A stretch of DNA of 64,000 bases. Origin: an uncultured Saprospiraceae bacterium (GTDB lineage: Bacteria; Bacteroidota; Bacteroidia; Chitinophagales; Saprospiraceae). Positions within the stretch are counted from its first letter, which is position 1. The number at the start of each line of letters is the position of its first letter. The DNA lies in assembly GCA_937942435.1 (NCBI GenBank), contig CALDEM010000041.1:62001-126000 (forward strand), read 5' to 3'. A program made the translations under genes and the position numbers. This document shows positions 5,545 through 17,187 of this stretch, piece by piece. The notes beneath the pieces are model-generated. The model was not told the DNA's origin. It searched no databases and saw only the letters and a program-made list of their open reading frames with translations.

Positions 5545-7119
5545 CTAATTATCAACGATCACTTTTGTTTGACCAATCACATCGCCATCATGATACAAGA
5601 CAACTATGTATTGGCCAGATCGGAGATTGGAAAAAGTGATACGTCCTATTCCTTGGTATTTATTTACGTAAGTGCCTGTGATTGTATATAGACGAGCAAC
5701 ATAATCTTCTTGACCAGCCCCCTCTATCCAAAACTGCCCATTGTTGGGATTAGGATATATAGAGAAACCGAGTGCAGAGATATCTACCGTGTTTGTAATT
5801 AAACTACAGTCATCTATAGATGCCTCTATCCCGTTCTGGATACCATCGTTACATGACCAATCACGTCGTATGATGGCCGCTTCCTCCTGGAGCATGTTCA
5901 TGATTGTTTCTTGCTCTGCTGTCAACCGATTAATCAAGTTATCCTCTTCCTTGATGTCCTCTATTATATCGTAAAACTCCTGATTGCCATCAGCTCCTTC
6001 TATTAATTTATAACGGTCAGTTCGAGTGGCCCAGACTAACACATCATCAATCTCATAGTCACTATAGTTTATCTCTCTCTGTGCATTGTTCTCACCTGCT
6101 AAAAGAGGAAGAAGACTAGCACTATTGAAGTCACCTCCGGGCAGATCTAAGCCCATCATCTCTAAGATCGTTGCATGAAGATCTGTTGACTGAACCAAGG
6201 CTGGCTCGATAGCTCCTTGTCTACTTATCCCTGCTCCAGACATCAGCAATGGGACGCGCAGTCCTCCTTCATAGATCGAGCCTTTGCCATGTCTATTAGG
6301 CCAGAAGTCAGTCACATTATTAGGCGTTCCGTTATCCCCTAAGAATATGAAAAGCGTATTGGCTCTTGCTTCTTCACTTAGACTATGGATCAACCTATTG
6401 ATCTCATGATCTATAGCTTCTATCATGGCAAAGTAGGTGCTTTGGCGATCCGTTGGTTCTGTAGTAAAGAGACCTACAGGTGGTGCTTGTATCGGCGCAT
6501 GTGGTGCAGCGTGCGCTAACCACAAAAACCACGGCTTTGTCTGCTCTTCGATCCAATCTATAGCTACATCTGTAAGATAAGATGTTGCATATTGAGTCTC
6601 TGTGCTTCTGACTCCATTAGTCACTTTGTCCCAGCCATAGTAGTCGTCAAATCCGGCTCCCAAGAAGCCATCAAAGTGATCGACATTATGTTGCTCTGGG
6701 TGGTTAACATTGTTATTGGTTCCAACATGCCATTTTCCTATCGCAGACATACTGTAGTTCAATCCGGCTGCTTTCACTTTCGTAAATATGGATTCATGCT
6801 CAAGGTCGAGTGGCCCAGGAGGTCTAAATACACCAGTTTTTATCCCAAACTTGCCACTCAGCAGTGCTGCTCTTGTAGGTGTACATTGAGGAGTAGCCCA
6901 GCAATTGGTGAACGCCATACCACTTGCTCGTAGAGAGTCTAGTGTAGGCGTCACCGGCTTGTCTCCCTCTATACCAAATCCATTAATAACATCAACACCT
7001 AAGTCATCAGCTATGATCAAGACAATGTTAGGTTTGTCTATCTGGGCTAGAACTGACCCACTGATGATCATACTAATGAGTATGCCCGAAAAGCGCATAA
7101 TGTATTGAGATTTTATCAT
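5545..7119 (-). CDS. secreted sulfatase with type IX secretion C-terminal domain
   Basis: About 524 aa from the ATG at 7119 (an upstream in-frame TTG at 7137 is less likely). Signal peptide: hydrophobic stretch ending in GSVLAQ. Type I sulfatase domain: metal site ADDLG near residue 38, then CTPTR, the C-x-P-x-R motif whose Cys (about 79) is converted to formylglycine. The last ~75 residues begin FSIYPNPNNGQF, the typical Por secretion system (T9SS) sorting domain, so it should be exported across the outer membrane and anchored or released. The substrate is probably a sulfated polysaccharide or glycoconjugate (inference). The C-terminal sorting domain is the strongest phylum marker in the window. 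Confidence 0.93.
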   Translation of the reverse strand: MIKSQYIMRFSGILISMIISGSVLAQIDKPNIVLIIADDLGVDVINGFGIEGDKPVTPTLDSLRASGMAFTNCWATPQCTPTRAALLSGKFGIKTGVFRPPGPLDLEHESIFTKVKAAGLNYSMSAIGKWHVGTNNNVNHPEQHNVDHFDGFLGAGFDDYYGWDKVTNGVRSTETQYATSYLTDVAIDWIEEQTKPWFLWLAHAAPHAPIQAPPVGLFTTEPTDRQSTYFAMIEAIDHEINRLIHSLSEEARANTLFIFLGDNGTPNNVTDFWPNRHGKGSIYEGGLRVPLLMSGAGISRQGAIEPALVQSTDLHATILEMMGLDLPGGDFNSASLLPLLAGENNAQREINYSDYEIDDVLVWATRTDRYKLIEGADGNQEFYDIIEDIKEEDNLINRLTAEQETIMNMLQEEAAIIRRDWSCNDGIQNGIEASIDDCSLITNTVDISALGFSIYPNPNNGQFWIEGAGQEDYVARLYTITGTYVNKYQGIGRITFSNLRSGQYIVVLYHDGDVIGQTKVIVDN

Positions 7120-7447
7120 AGCTAACAAGATCAACAAATCGCTTTCAATGATTAGAAGAAGGTAAACAGGAGATGTTCACAGTTTTCAGCTGAATGAATA
7201 GCAAATATTAGCCAAAGATAAGTGCTACAACACATAATAACAGCATCGATATTGATGACATTAGGTTTGTTCTATTCCAAAAATCACTTAAAGTTCAGTA
7301 GTTTATAAATATTGAAAATATATCATTCAATAAATTTTAACTCTGAGTCAAGTTTTTTTTAACAATTGATGTTACTTTTCCATATATATCGAGTCTCTAT
7401 AGAGTGTCGATCTATTATATTTTCCTTTAAAACAATTACAGAATAAA
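7120..7447. other. intergenic region between divergent transcripts
   Basis: 328 bp, AT-rich, between the sulfatase start and the OmpA gene start. No ORF or RNA gene is evident. It must hold both promoters. A 22-bp imperfect palindrome lies close to the OmpA start and is listed separately. No convincing full -33/-7 pair was found by eye. Confidence 0.6.
7389..7410. promoter_or_regulatory. 22-bp imperfect palindrome, possible operator
   Basis: The core CTCTATAGAG is a perfect 10-bp palindrome and the outer arms are TCGA on both sides, with a 2-bp mismatch between core and arms. It ends 37 bp before the ATG of the OmpA-operon, where an operator or a 5'UTR stem would sit. Short AT-rich palindromes arise by chance, so this is only a candidate. 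Confidence 0.25.
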
Positions 7448-8347
7448 ATGAGTAAATCAATTTGGTGGTGGATTTTTCTTTTGTCAGGAGTGTGTGCGCT
7501 TCTTGCATTTATCTGTTGTAGATTCATGTGCGGTGTAGCAGGTGGAGAGGATACAACTAAAGCTGTTATAGCACCTGTTACTAAGGCCGCAGCAGTTTGG
7601 AATGTCAGAGATGGAGCAACTTTTAATGATGGCGTCGATGAGCATTGGAGATTTGGCACTTCTAAGTTCAGTCACATGACTCCATTATCTCAAGATATGC
7701 AGACCTCTATGGCTGCAACTGCAGCATATCTTAAAGATAACCCAGAAAGATCGTTGACTATAACCGGTTATTACCAAGAAAACGAAACCAACAATAGTAT
7801 CCTTCCTAATCTTGGATTGGCGAGAGCAAATGATATAAACAAATTTATGAGAGGGCTTGGTGTACCAGCTAAGCAGCTGAACAATGCCGCAAGGATCGTA
7901 GGAGTTAATACGATCAAGTCTGGCGTCCTAACCAAAGGGGCTGAGTTTAGCTTTGACGCTTTAGCTTCTGGTGACGATCGTCTGGCGGCTATTAAGTCGA
8001 GATTGTTTGGCAAGCCGATCACTTTATATTTCGGTACCAACCAAGACAATATCAGCCTAACGGCTCAACAAAGAACAGATTTTTCTGACCTCATCTATTA
8101 TCTCGACAATGTGTCTACAAGCAAATTAGAAATCTCTGGACATACGGATGGTACTGGCAATAGAGATGCTAATGTCGCTCTATCGCAGAGTCGTGCAAAG
8201 TTTGTCGATGATTACTTAAGTCGAAATGGTGGAATCAACACCAGTAGAACAAGTACAATCGGCCATGGCCCAGACAAACCAATCGGCAGCAATAGCACCA
8301 ATGAAGGTCGTGCTAAAAATCGTAGAGTTGAAGTAACCCTACAGTAG
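7448..8347 (+). CDS. OmpA family protein, peptidoglycan-binding C-terminus
   Basis: 299 aa with one N-terminal membrane segment (residues about 5-28, WWWIFLLSG...). A degenerate OmpA-like module (about 60-140, with PERSLTITGYYQ) is followed by a canonical OmpA C-terminal domain (about 190-299): ITLYFGTNQ, LEISGHTDGTGN, LSQSRAKFV and GRAKNRRVEV. The domain binds the diaminopimelate of peptidoglycan. No beta-barrel is present, so it is a membrane-anchored peptidoglycan-binding protein rather than a porin. First gene of a three-gene operon (38-bp and 29-bp gaps) closed by the terminator at 11571. Confidence 0.88.
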   Translation: MSKSIWWWIFLLSGVCALLAFICCRFMCGVAGGEDTTKAVIAPVTKAAAVWNVRDGATFNDGVDEHWRFGTSKFSHMTPLSQDMQTSMAATAAYLKDNPERSLTITGYYQENETNNSILPNLGLARANDINKFMRGLGVPAKQLNNAARIVGVNTIKSGVLTKGAEFSFDALASGDDRLAAIKSRLFGKPITLYFGTNQDNISLTAQQRTDFSDLIYYLDNVSTSKLEISGHTDGTGNRDANVALSQSRAKFVDDYLSRNGGINTSRTSTIGHGPDKPIGSNSTNEGRAKNRRVEVTLQ

Positions 8348-8385
8348 TTCTAATCCAATTTTTAATATCAAGAAATCTATATATT

Positions 8386-10434
8386 ATGTTTTTATGTTTT
8401 TGGTTACCATTTTTATTATTCTTCGCACTAGGTCTCCTCAGTGGATTTATCGGCTGGTGGCTTAGAAGAAACCGTATCAGTGAGCTCGAAGGAGAAGTAA
8501 AAGATTATAATAGCAGATATCTCAATCTAAAAAGTGATCACGATAGTTTTTTAGGTAGATACAATACGCTCAACGCTAACTTTGATCAACTTACTTCTGA
8601 TCACAGTGCACTTAATGTGTCATTAGATGATTGGAAATCTAAATATACAGCAAGAGATACTGAGTACCAATCGCTTGACAGCAAATATGGTTTGCTCAAC
8701 ACTGATCACACTAAAGCAAAAGCTGAACTGACTGATTGGAGAAGCAAATATGAAAATAGAAACAAAGAGTATGTTTCTCTTAATTCTAAATACGAAGGTC
8801 TCGATACAGATTACAAAGCAGCGAAAAAAGAACGTGAAGATTGGAAAACTAAGTACAGTAATAGAGATTCTGAATATAGATCTTTAGAGAGCAATCATAA
8901 TAAACTCAAAAGTGATTATGATACTACAGTCGTTGCAAGAGATGATTGGAAAGCTCAGTATGAAGCTAAGAATACGGCTTATACTACTATGTCCGGAGAA
9001 TATGAAGAGCATAAAGTATCCGCTCAACAGAGAGAAGACAATCTCAACACCCGACTTACCGACAAGACTAATGAACACAATGCATTTGTAAAAGATCACC
9101 AGACTTGTGATGCAGATATCTCTGGATTACGTGCTGATATAGACGGTAAGAACAAGGTAATCGCAGAGTGGGAGTCTAAGTATAACGACTCACAAAACTC
9201 TTACAATAGCCTTGCTGCTGATTGGGAAGCAAAGAGCAGTAGCTGGGCAACAGAGCGCCAAGGATTTGTTTCATCTATAGAGTCATCTTCAGCTTGGGAA
9301 GGCAAGTACAATGGACTACAAGGAGAGTATGACCAGCTCAAGGCAAGCAGCGAGTCAACGATCAAGAGTAAAGATGAAGAGATAGCAGGATTGAATCAAT
9401 CTATCAACAACTGGGAGATCAACTTTAATTCATTAAAATCTGATCAAGCTGGAGATAGTGAAAAATCTCAAGCGCTCATCCTTCAATGGACGAATAAATA
9501 TAATGACCTCGTCGGCCAAGCCAATGCTAAAGACAAAGATATATCAGGACTCAATGGCCAACTATCAGATTGGAAATCAAAGTTCTCAAATCTTGATAAA
9601 GCACATCAAAACGCATTAGCTGAGTTAAAAGCTAAGCCGAAGGAAGTTGAAGTGATCAAGGAGGTAGAAGTTGAGAAGATCGTAGAAAAGATCGTTGAGA
9701 AAGAAGTACCCGTCGAAGTGATCAAAGAAGTGGAGGTTGAGAAGATTGTAGAGAAGATTGTCGAGAAAGAAGTGCCTGTAGAAGTAATCAAAGAAGTGGA
9801 GGTTGAAAAGATCGTCGAAAAGATCGTTGAGAAAGAAGTGCCTGTAGAAGTGATCAAAGAAGTAGAGGTTGAAAAGATTGTAGAGAAGATCGTTGAGAAA
9901 GAAGTGCCTGTAGAAGTAGTTAAGGAGATAGAAGTAGTTAGAGAAGTACCGATAGAGATCATCAAAGAAGTAGAAGTTGTCAAGTATCCTGACATGAACG
10001 AACTACTTGCTATGATGAAAGGTATGTCGACTTCTGAGGTATCCAGAACTGTTGTCGGTGAAACTAGAACAAAAGCAAAGACGACAACAAAGAAAGCTAC
10101 TAAAAAGACAAGCACTAAAAAAGCGAACACAAGTAAGACCGCTGGCAAGAAAACAACAAGCGCAAAGGTAAAGGCCAAGAAAGATGATCTTAAGAAGATC
10201 GAAGGTATAGGGCCAAAAATAGAGAAGCTCTTGCATACTGATGGCATCCTTACTTTTAAGCAATTAGCAGACGCAAAGACGGCAAGGGTTAGAAAGATAT
10301 TGGATGATGCAGGACCAAGATTTAGAATGCACGATCCTCAGTCATGGGCGAAGCAAGCTGGCTTAGCAGCTACTGGCAAATGGGATGCACTTAAAAAACT
10401 TCAAGACGCACTCGATGGCGGTCGCAAGAAATAA
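8386..10434 (+). CDS. membrane-anchored coiled-coil protein with valine-glutamate-lysine repeats and C-terminal helix-hairpin-helix
   Basis: 682 aa. One N-terminal transmembrane helix (about 3-25) is followed by RRNR. A long coiled coil (about 30-410) has a recurring ~35-residue pattern with DWK.KY and Y.SL...Y. Next come four exact-length 22-residue repeats (421-508, unit VEVIKEVEVEKIVEKIVEKE..), a Lys/Thr-rich basic stretch (about 560-595), and a C-terminal helix-hairpin-helix with KIEGIGPKIEKLL and an AGPRFRMHDPQSW tail. The same C-terminal module extends ribosomal protein L21 in this phylum. The architecture suggests a cytoplasmic rod tied to the membrane at one end and able to contact nucleic acid at the other (inference). 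No homologue of known function is recognised. Confidence 0.85.
   Translation: MFLCFWLPFLLFFALGLLSGFIGWWLRRNRISELEGEVKDYNSRYLNLKSDHDSFLGRYNTLNANFDQLTSDHSALNVSLDDWKSKYTARDTEYQSLDSKYGLLNTDHTKAKAELTDWRSKYENRNKEYVSLNSKYEGLDTDYKAAKKEREDWKTKYSNRDSEYRSLESNHNKLKSDYDTTVVARDDWKAQYEAKNTAYTTMSGEYEEHKVSAQQREDNLNTRLTDKTNEHNAFVKDHQTCDADISGLRADIDGKNKVIAEWESKYNDSQNSYNSLAADWEAKSSSWATERQGFVSSIESSSAWEGKYNGLQGEYDQLKASSESTIKSKDEEIAGLNQSINNWEINFNSLKSDQAGDSEKSQALILQWTNKYNDLVGQANAKDKDISGLNGQLSDWKSKFSNLDKAHQNALAELKAKPKEVEVIKEVEVEKIVEKIVEKEVPVEVIKEVEVEKIVEKIVEKEVPVEVIKEVEVEKIVEKIVEKEVPVEVIKEVEVEKIVEKIVEKEVPVEVVKEIEVVREVPIEIIKEVEVVKYPDMNELLAMMKGMSTSEVSRTVVGETRTKAKTTTKKATKKTSTKKANTSKTAGKKTTSAKVKAKKDDLKKIEGIGPKIEKLLHTDGILTFKQLADAKTARVRKILDDAGPRFRMHDPQSWAKQAGLAATGKWDALKKLQDALDGGRKK
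9646..9909 (+). repeat. four tandem 66-bp repeats inside the coiled-coil gene
   Basis: Four in-frame 66-bp units start at 9646, 9712, 9778 and 9844, each coding the same 22-residue unit (VEVIKEVEVEKIVEKIVEKEVP with no length change). A degenerate fifth unit follows. The units differ at synonymous sites (for example atcgtagaaaag versus attgtagagaag), so protein sequence has been kept while DNA diverged. Related KEVPVEV segments occur in the next gene. Confidence 0.95.
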
Positions 10435-10463
10435 AATGTCCAATTAAAATTAGAATCACATAG

Positions 10464-11546
10464 ATGAAAAAAAATCAAAAACTAATTAGCAAATCGGCCT
10501 TAATAGATCAGATAGCAAAAAAGGCAAAGATCACTGCTAATAAAGCACAGATAGCATACGAGACAGTCTTACTACAATCTCCAGCATTCAGACAGCAACT
10601 TGTAAAAACTGTAAAAGCCAAGGAGCAAGTTGCCGTAAAAGTGCCAGGCAAAACAACAGTAAAAAAAGTCAATCTCACAAAAGAGAAAACTGTTAAGACT
10701 GGAGGCAGCAAAGAGAAAATAAAAGTTGTAGAAGTAAAAGTACCTGTACCAGTTGTCCAGATCAAAGAAGTGATCAAAGAAGTACAAGTTGTCAAGGAAG
10801 TACCTGTAGTTGTTGAAAAGACCGTTATCAAAGAGGTTAAGGTGGTCAAAGAAGTACCTGTAGAGGTCCTTAAGGAGATAACATTGGTAAGAGAGGTAGA
10901 GAAGACGGTTGTCAAAGAAGTCAAAGTAAAAGACGAAGCAGGGTTGAAAAAGCTTAATGCAAAATTAATTGCATTAGAAAAGAGCTTAAAACTTGCTACC
11001 GCCAAAAACAAAGACTTATCAAAACGACTTGCAGCTAAGCCGAAGACGGTGATAAAAGAAGTACCTGTTGAAGTAATCCGTGAAGTAGAAGTTGTAAAGC
11101 AAATAGATTTTGCCAGCTTAGAGAAGATGATGAAAGGAATGAAGACGGTAGAGATCTCTAAAAAAGTTATTGGAGAGACACGTACCAAGAAGGAGGGAAA
11201 GGTTGTCGCAAGACGAGAGGTAAAGCCTGGCAGCATAAAAATGACCACAAAATCCACAGGTAAGAAGTCTACAGGGGCAAAATCAAAAAGCTCTGGCAAA
11301 GATGACTTAACGAAGATAGAAGGTATAGGGCCTAAGATCGCTGGCTTATTGAATAAGGATGGCATCCATACTTTTAAGCAATTAGCAGCAGCTAAAACGA
11401 CGCGCCTTCAAAAAATCCTGACTGATGCTGGCCCAAGGTATCAGATGCACAATCCTGGCTCTTGGCCCAAGCAGTCTGGCCTTGCCGCAGCAGGAAAATG
11501 GAAAGAGCTAGATAAACTCCAAGAAGAACTGGACGGAGGTAAGTAA
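10464..11546 (+). CDS. HU/IHF-like N-terminal protein with shared helix-hairpin-helix C-terminus
   Basis: 360 aa. Residues about 8-45 (KSALIDQIAKKAKITANKAQ) resemble the dimerisation helices of HU-family DNA-binding proteins; the beta-arm region is replaced by a long Val/Lys/Glu stretch (about 85-155, KEVKVVKEVPVEV type). Then comes a short coiled coil (about 160-190), a basic linker (about 235-275) and a C-terminal module (KIEGIGPKIAGLL ... AGPRYQMHNPGSW) paralogous to that of the upstream gene. No membrane segment. It is probably a DNA-binding or scaffold protein acting with its neighbour. Last gene of the operon. Confidence 0.82.
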   Translation: MKKNQKLISKSALIDQIAKKAKITANKAQIAYETVLLQSPAFRQQLVKTVKAKEQVAVKVPGKTTVKKVNLTKEKTVKTGGSKEKIKVVEVKVPVPVVQIKEVIKEVQVVKEVPVVVEKTVIKEVKVVKEVPVEVLKEITLVREVEKTVVKEVKVKDEAGLKKLNAKLIALEKSLKLATAKNKDLSKRLAAKPKTVIKEVPVEVIREVEVVKQIDFASLEKMMKGMKTVEISKKVIGETRTKKEGKVVARREVKPGSIKMTTKSTGKKSTGAKSKSSGKDDLTKIEGIGPKIAGLLNKDGIHTFKQLAAAKTTRLQKILTDAGPRYQMHNPGSWPKQSGLAAAGKWKELDKLQEELDGGK

Positions 11547-11570: not shown

Positions 11571-11601
11571 GGGTGATCAACAATCTTGATCACCCTTTTT
11601 T
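11571..11601 (+). terminator. Rho-independent terminator of the OmpA/coiled-coil operon
   Basis: Perfect 9-bp stem GGGTGATCA / TGATCACCC with a 7-nt loop, followed by six Ts. It lies 24 bp after the stop codon of the HU-like gene. Confidence 0.9.
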
Positions 11602-16820: not shown

Positions 16821-17187
16821 TGGTGGAGCCGGAGGGATTCGAACCCTCGTCCAGACAAAGCGCTTGTAAGCTTTCTACATGTTTATCTCTTACTTAAGTT
16901 TTCGACATCGGGAAGGTGTAAAAGCAACCACCCTCAGCTTAGCTTCATTAAGCTTCGTATCTACTGACTAAAGCGGATCAATAGAACTATTCTACCTTTG
17001 GTTAAGGTGACATCATGTGTAGTAGAAATCAACGATGCGACCTAAAAGCTTCTAATCCTAGATTAGGCAGCTAGTGCGAATTGTCTTTCGCCAAATAAAG
17101 TTTGATTACCATTTTTTGCGCAGTGAGCAACCTTACTGCGACATGCTTACTTACCAACATTCTTTCCTGTCAATTCCAGTCGGCCCC
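16821..17187 (-). ncRNA. ssrA: transfer-messenger RNA (tmRNA)
   Basis: 367 nt. The 5' end GGGGCCGACTGGAATTGACA and the 3' end ...GGTTCGAATCCCTCCGGCTCCACCA-type T-arm and CCA are both present, and GGGGCC pairs with GGCTCC (one G-U) to form the acceptor stem. The internal tag reading frame runs from 17110 to 17063 on the minus strand and reads GNQTLFGERQFALAA followed by TAA. The end ALAA is the protease-recognition signal. The RNA rescues stalled ribosomes with SmpB; smpB is not in the window. A palindrome at 17208-17224 (TGATCT-CGTAT-AGATCA) lies just upstream, in the promoter region. Confidence 0.96.

Follow-up and report, generated by a model that had tools for sequence, protein, structure and literature searches.

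Can a small set of proteins tie the bacterial cell wall, through the membrane, to the nucleoid? This question is raised by a three-gene operon of an uncultured Saprospiraceae bacterium (Bacteroidota), which lies in a stretch of 64,000 nucleotides analysed here as a whole (hereafter the window; assembly GCA_937942435.1, contig CALDEM010000041.1, positions 62,001 to 126,000 of the forward strand). The operon encodes an OmpA-type protein (gene 1), a membrane coiled-coil protein with a C-terminal helix-hairpin-helix (HhH) module (gene 2) and a basic soluble protein ending in the same module (gene 3). An earlier note, made from the DNA letters alone, proposed that the three proteins link the wall, the membrane and the chromosome. 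Our answer is tentative and falls somewhat short of an even chance: genes 1 and 2 may form a wall-anchored envelope tether for nucleic acid, mainly nucleoid DNA. The OmpA-type protein would be held in the inner membrane by a single helix and would grip peptidoglycan via its second OmpA domain. The HhH partner, presumably in direct contact with it, would pass once through the same membrane with its N-terminus out and its C-terminus in, and its coiled coil, spacer and HhH module would lie in the cytoplasm. There the module would bind nucleic acid, most likely DNA of the nucleoid rather than RNA, and wall, membrane and nucleoid would be tied together. Gene 3 would add a basic, soluble partner that shares the spacer and HhH module and sometimes has a histone-H1-like tail, and would probably reinforce the nucleoid end of the link.

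The first two genes recur as a pair. A total of 296 Bacteroidota genomes were drawn from the phylum (the window's and 295 others), and the module was detected at E 1e-10 in 33 of them, the window's included; modules more divergent than this threshold stand outside the counts. Reading frames were called by our own scripts, and hydropathy was the only criterion for membrane helices. All 58 modules beyond the window's genome were covered, in 55 loci, and six-frame scoring gave 56 HhH frames. An OmpA gene stood directly upstream of 21 of the 30 membrane HhH frames versus none of the 26 other HhH frames (Fisher p = 1.6e-8), with a baseline of 0/252 for the other open reading frames (ORFs) in these loci. 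The 21 pairs came from 20 genomes in four families. A further set of named loci comprised the best 80 of 535 confirmed stretches matching the module and leans to close relatives, the phylum draw less so. Of its 97 HhH frames, 31 were of the membrane type; 24 of these had OmpA upstream and 2 (L066, an ActD protein, and L114) had it downstream, versus 0/66 other HhH frames beside OmpA, five of which lie at a contig end with the upstream gene out of view (Fisher p = 7.6e-17). The two sets overlap in at least one place (L070 = L186), polytopic proteins (6 and 2) were placed among the other HhH frames, and in the exceptions L080, L120 and L187 the frame belongs to the latter of two HhH genes that follow OmpA (OmpA-HhH-HhH). 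The contig of L114, where OmpA follows a membrane HhH gene, is labelled Methylotenera and may come from Bacteroidota and have been binned in error. Fifty-nine pairs, defined by an upstream OmpA-profile match and deduplicated on their last 60 residues (L040 and L047 with the degenerate domain only), were separated by a median gap of 22 bases. Among the named carriers is Siphonobacter aquaeclarae DSM 21668 (L120); uncultured members of Aquimarina and Lutibacter also hold the pair (L089, L134, L084), and the window's own genome holds a second pair (G000:C91; L035) whose partner bears two HhH modules.

The genes and their parts in the window, given in amino acids (aa) where they concern the proteins, are as follows.

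7448-8347, plus strand: gene 1, OmpA-type protein of 299 aa (ORF; Pfam OmpA)
7682-7891, plus strand: degenerate OmpA-like domain of gene 1, aa about 79-148, Asp lost and Arg kept (residue check)
8027-8323, plus strand: intact OmpA domain of gene 1, aa 194-292, with Asp (GHTD), Arg (SRA) and NRR (Pfam, residues)
8386-10434, plus strand: gene 2, membrane coiled-coil HhH protein of 682 aa (ORF; Pfam)
8392-8460, plus strand: transmembrane helix of gene 2, limits approximate, Lys/Arg on the C-terminal side (hydropathy, charges)
8473-9615, plus strand: predicted coiled coil of gene 2, aa 30-410 (3.5 period; weak SMC- and crescentin-type matches)
9628-10005, plus strand: V-E-V-I-K-E-type repeat region of gene 2 (repeat analysis)
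10177-10431, plus strand: C-terminal HhH module of gene 2 (Pfam, alignments)
10464-11546, plus strand: gene 3, basic soluble protein of 360 aa with gene 2-type repeat and HhH module (ORF)
10482-10583, plus strand: HU alpha1-alpha2-like hairpin of gene 3 (hhalign, PDB profile search, model)
11295-11543, plus strand: C-terminal HhH module of gene 3 (HHH_5 at 2.3e-7; model confidence 96.2)
11571-11601, plus strand: intrinsic terminator, a 10-pair stem followed by TTTTTT (terminator scan)

Genes 1 and 2 are 38 bases apart and genes 2 and 3 are 29 bases apart, all three on the plus strand. Seven terminator-like sites were found in the region versus a mean of 3.3 in shuffles, and the one after gene 3 (11571-11595) has the longest stem of the seven and a fitting position. 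At the wall end, gene 1 begins with a hydrophobic anchor, and its OmpA domain (PF00691) scored 79.4 bits (E 2.7e-22; Pfam cut-off 27.2). The Asp and Arg of OmpA domains hold diaminopimelate. Across the 59 pairs the second OmpA domain was found 57 times, with Asp kept in 55 and Arg in 56, and the first OmpA-like domain 50 times, with Asp in 3 and Arg in all 50. Since the second domain keeps both residues and the first mostly lacks Asp, only the second is equipped to bind the wall, and we regard the wall end of the proposed link as well supported. Gene 1 resembles the C-terminal-domain proteins of the Pal/YiaD/OmpA type in having an OmpA domain with wall-binding residues. It differs from the Pal/YiaD type in its degenerate first OmpA-like domain, in its HhH partner gene and in the lack of a lipobox-like match in its first 40 aa, a pattern test by which 5 of the 59 OmpA partners did match; against the NCBIfam equivalogs, every match among those listed was below cut-off.

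Gene 2 has a single hydrophobic segment, at its N-terminus. In the 59 pairs the Lys and Arg residues flanking this helix averaged 0.12 on the N-terminal side versus 2.85 on the C-terminal side, and the C-terminal side had more of them in 57 pairs, which by the positive-inside rule places the HhH module in the cytoplasm (N-out/C-in); this charge-based topology is fairly well supported. Residues 30-410 show a hydrophobic period of 3.5 residues, matched by 6 of 300 shuffles, and are followed by a repeat region in which a 66-nt unit recurs 4.1 times (9649-9917). A coiled-coil reading of this V-E-V-I-K-E repeat was rejected, as its hydrophobic period in gene 2 is 2.0-2.75 with no heptad signal; in the gene 3 repeat no hydrophobic period stood out (138 of 300 shuffles reached the best). 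The C-terminal module of about 83 aa matched HHH_5 (PF14520) with 24.7 bits in gene 2, just below the cut-off of 27 bits, and with 31.6 bits (E 2.3e-7) in gene 3, above it. The C-terminal halves of the two proteins are 61% identical (gene-3 residues 193-360), and AlphaFold2 modelled the module with a mean predicted local distance difference test (pLDDT) of 96.2. The hairpin G-x-G-P-K is present in 52 of the 59 modules detected by profile in the phylum loci. The DNA end of the link, where HhH is the putative binder of nucleic acid, is weaker, with moderate support. The architecture given in the earlier note was confirmed in these respects: three co-directional genes closed by a terminator; an OmpA-domain protein predicted to bind peptidoglycan; a protein with one N-terminal helix, a long coiled coil and HhH; and a C-terminal module common to genes 2 and 3.

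Gene 3 is soluble with an isoelectric point of 10.06, and the HU-like N-terminus that had been ascribed to it was found in part. Its first two helices resemble those of HU by hhalign (E 2.3e-7 over 33 columns), and a profile of the gene-3 N-terminus, searched against PDB sequences up to E 10, gave 16 rows, of which the first 14 were HU without exception (best HU-alpha, 6e-4). The strands and the DNA-binding arm of HU are missing: the AlphaFold2 model has helices and no strands, at low confidence there (mean pLDDT 65.5, predicted TM-score 0.35; about 80-88 for the first 30 residues), and the HU motifs GFGTF and GRNP (alignment A4) are absent from alignment A2. In single-sequence Pfam searches with 14 gene-3-type N-termini, HU matched 5 (best E 0.052) and the unrelated family Ntox3 matched 3 with a better score (best E 2.3e-4); the window's N-terminus reached 14.1 bits against HU (PF00216), under the cut-off of 22.4. 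Sixteen gene-3-like proteins, defined by the repeat and HhH with no membrane helix, were noted, spread over the window's family and a second one. Eleven are just downstream of an OmpA-HhH pair, three of these (L040, L057, L062) with one P-domain-like HhH gene in between; four (L043, L048, L099, L122) are away from the pair, and L076 is at a contig end. The co-occurrence of the three genes, named as a check in the earlier note, is seen for the first two and, in 11 of 16 cases, for the third, with some relatives that have no OmpA gene. Genes for P-domain proteins with HhH adjoin the pair at L009:441-1415, L057:6285-7280, L062:5263-6249 and L104:6416-7387; the proprotein-convertase P-domain was Pfam-tested in L009, which by eye has no obvious signal peptide, and assigned by likeness in the other three.

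With the wall-binding residues kept, the charges placing HhH in the cytoplasm and the pair recurrent, a link from wall to cytoplasm is reasonable. A number of observations weigh against its extension to the nucleoid or its generality. The pair has a patchy spread, being present in 20 of the 295 genomes drawn besides the window's. Membrane HhH genes stand without OmpA at L206, L209 and L218 (an anchor remnant is left in L206 and L218), no OmpA partner was seen at L223, L230, L235, L238, L239, L124 and L135, and at L040, L047 and L062 the partner has only 160-176 aa, comprising the anchor and the degenerate domain; these OmpA-less and shortened cases show that loss of the wall-binding domain need not take the other parts with it. 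The Lys/Arg around the OmpA anchor (mean 1.49 on the N-terminal side versus 1.36 on the C-terminal side) do not give its orientation. Foldseek with the module model returned nothing below E 1e-3 (best E 0.18). VIA-align matched the model to pol iota (Z 6.4) and, in favour of nucleic acid, to HhH domains of the DNA-repair proteins POLQ (9.3), RadA (7.8) and Hel308 (6.6), yet also to NusA AR2 (7.1), a protein-binding HhH (SuhB complex, 6ib8). According to the tool, models of this kind commonly reach Z of 7-9, and the scores were used only together with the HHH_5 sequence match. In alignments A1 and A5 the hairpin looks invariant partly because their members were chosen by an EGIGPK-type pattern, and the net charge of the module is about zero (mean +0.5, range -9 to +9, n=53). 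The module is also fused to many proteins without an obvious DNA role. The histone-H1-like HC2 matches in gene-3 relatives (L062, 2e-24; L045, 9.4e-8, below cut-off) speak for nucleic acid but can reflect a Lys/Ala-rich composition, and the unrelated module carriers L015 (3.6e-4) and L092 (1.7e-6) match weakly; the L062 match nevertheless appears to be the best single sign of nucleic-acid contact. The proposed link of wall, membrane and chromosome therefore stands in part, carried by the wall residues, the HhH placement and the recurrence of the pair, and set back by a module on many unrelated proteins and by the missing HU arm.

The same wall-anchored membrane dock could bind a protein, the ribosome or itself through HhH rather than DNA, and would then gather ribosomes, respiratory complexes and others at one place, a possibility that we take seriously while doubting it. 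It would fit the hosts of the module, which by Pfam is C-terminal on eight ribosomal proteins of different genomes (S1, L27, L21 and L17 at L070, L063, L088 and L133; S2, S6, S16 and L16 at L220, L060, L065 and L240) and on NrfD, ActD, AMPK1_CBM (AMPK-type carbohydrate-binding) and P_proprotein (P-domain) proteins, including a respiratory NrfD-type protein (L058:4486-6249) and the ActD subunit of alternative complex III (L066:6262-7149). As the module sits on so many unrelated proteins, it is by itself no sign of a chromosome tether. Its relatives of solved structure are protein-O, from a photosynthetic complex (3.1e-9), and a subunit of complex I (4.2e-6); together with the NusA AR2 match they point the same way. 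Against such docking are the kept G-x-G-P-K hairpin, the strong histone-like match of L062 and the number of modules per genome. Exactly one module at E 1e-10 was found in 17 of the 32 module-bearing genomes besides the window's, its hosts being, by our own reading, 10 membrane proteins, 6 ribosomal proteins (five of them named by N-terminal likeness to tested ones) and 1 other. A single module per genome suggests a ligand that every cell has, either nucleic acid or the module itself, so that docking between different HhH proteins is disfavoured as a general rule and self-association is left. On yet another reading, which we consider unlikely, the module would be a general nucleoid tag of Bacteroidota, joined in repeated, independent fusions to at least eight ribosomal proteins, to respiratory and carbohydrate-binding proteins and, via the OmpA pair, to the wall.

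Three further readings give the pair another role. Gene 2 might be a ComEA-like receptor of a DNA-uptake device, with HhH outside the membrane. ComEA likewise sits in the membrane and carries HhH at its C-terminus, and the second pair of the window's genus (L035:6189-8001; L051, L052, L054) is divergent from a ComEC-type gene (Pfam Competence match of 1.9e-51 at L035, the only one tested) and adjoins a large helicase. We judge this very improbable, because the charges place HhH in the cytoplasm in 57/59 partners; the ComEC-type neighbour was seen at those four loci and not at the window's own pair, with no systematic search elsewhere. Somewhat less remote, though still improbable, is an envelope sensor or stiffener in which OmpA reports the state of the wall, the coiled coil is mechanical or signalling and HhH is accessory. 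The long coiled coil of the window protein and the three relatives in which the OmpA partner is reduced to its anchor and degenerate domain would suit it. However, length in the named set ranges from 143 to 1173 aa, and the coiled coil is thus no constant feature (the constancy of HhH is biased, the loci having been chosen by HhH), and Pfam found no signalling domain in genes 1-3. Finally, these proteins would be nucleases if labels such as 'predicted flap-endonuclease-like 5' nuclease', used in databases, were right. HhH modules do occur in flap endonucleases, but conservation is limited to a unit of about 83 aa and no nuclease domain was found in any of genes 1-3 by Pfam, and this reading is hardly credible.

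The proposed tether to nucleic acid was also compared with known systems. Burroughs et al. (2017, in Cell Cycle) are reported to have predicted a linker of wall, membrane and nucleoid in Bacteroidota, composed of HU-CCDC81, a transmembrane segment and SPOR. By Pfam, HU-CCDC81_bac_1, HU-CCDC81_bac_2 and SPOR occur in one protein at the relative L241, and the remark in the earlier note that it knew of no described system with this set was thus too strong. Both architectures join a predicted cytoplasmic domain of DNA-binding type, a membrane helix and a periplasmic peptidoglycan-binding domain; that of HU-CCDC81-SPOR is a single polypeptide, whereas the window system uses two or three proteins with OmpA and HhH instead. 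Neither HU-CCDC81 nor SPOR was among the Pfam matches of genes 1-3 up to E 1. HU-CCDC81_bac_2 was above cut-off in none of six genomes of the window's genus (G000-G005; three less than 90% complete) and in 10 of 14 other relatives. Mutual exclusion of this linker and the module was rejected, HU-CCDC81_bac_2 being present at E 1e-6 in 27 of the 32 module-bearing drawn genomes besides the window's. The pair of OmpA and HhH itself was not met in the literature searched. HU-CCDC81-SPOR appears to be the nearest known system in idea, and the OmpA-HhH version would be new.

Single parts of gene 2 have other likenesses. Protein-O of the Dinoroseobacter RC-LH1 (PDB 8yy9) similarly has an N-terminal membrane part, a flexible linker and the C-terminal match to the module; unlike gene 2, its membrane part has two helices and is bound to the photosynthetic complex (PMC12079452). 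In the portion of that paper drawn on here, the protein-O gene is flanked on both sides by genes for NADH-quinone oxidoreductase, an OmpA partner does not come up and the functions of protein-O-type domains are called obscure (PMC12079452). The ends of the gene 2 and gene 3 proteins also match the NCBIfam profiles PRK12278, PRK12311, PRK12373 and PhaH, in which L21, S2, NuoE and phasin bear C-terminal HhH extensions. These extensions are on soluble or complex-bound proteins, while that of gene 2 is on a membrane anchor paired with OmpA.

The surroundings of the operon were also surveyed. No match to a Bacteroidetes-type promoter pattern was found within 7001-10500, and sigma-70-like sites were at chance level (12 found versus 11.3 expected). 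The upstream neighbour is a divergent sulfatase gene and a NUDIX gene follows the terminator (Pfam). The sulfatase (5545-7137, minus strand) bears a secretion-system C-terminal sorting domain. A transfer-messenger RNA gene, missed by ARAGORN, lies at 16821-17187 of the window on the minus strand (Rfam 1e-46). The genome has 3.74 Mb in 110 contigs and is 76% complete. A viral origin was rejected, as neither gene 2 nor the module profile found a relative in the viral contigs scanned.

How the chromosome is held and placed relative to the wall in bacteria, which have no spindle, is an open question, and a recurrent pair with an intact wall-binding domain and a predicted cytoplasmic HhH makes it testable in cultured Bacteroidota. 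The pair is also a starting point for the module on the many ribosomal and respiratory proteins. Were the module a general nucleoid tag, all tagged proteins would be tied to one DNA scaffold, the operon of the window would be its wall-side anchor and gene 3 a dedicated linker on the nucleoid side.

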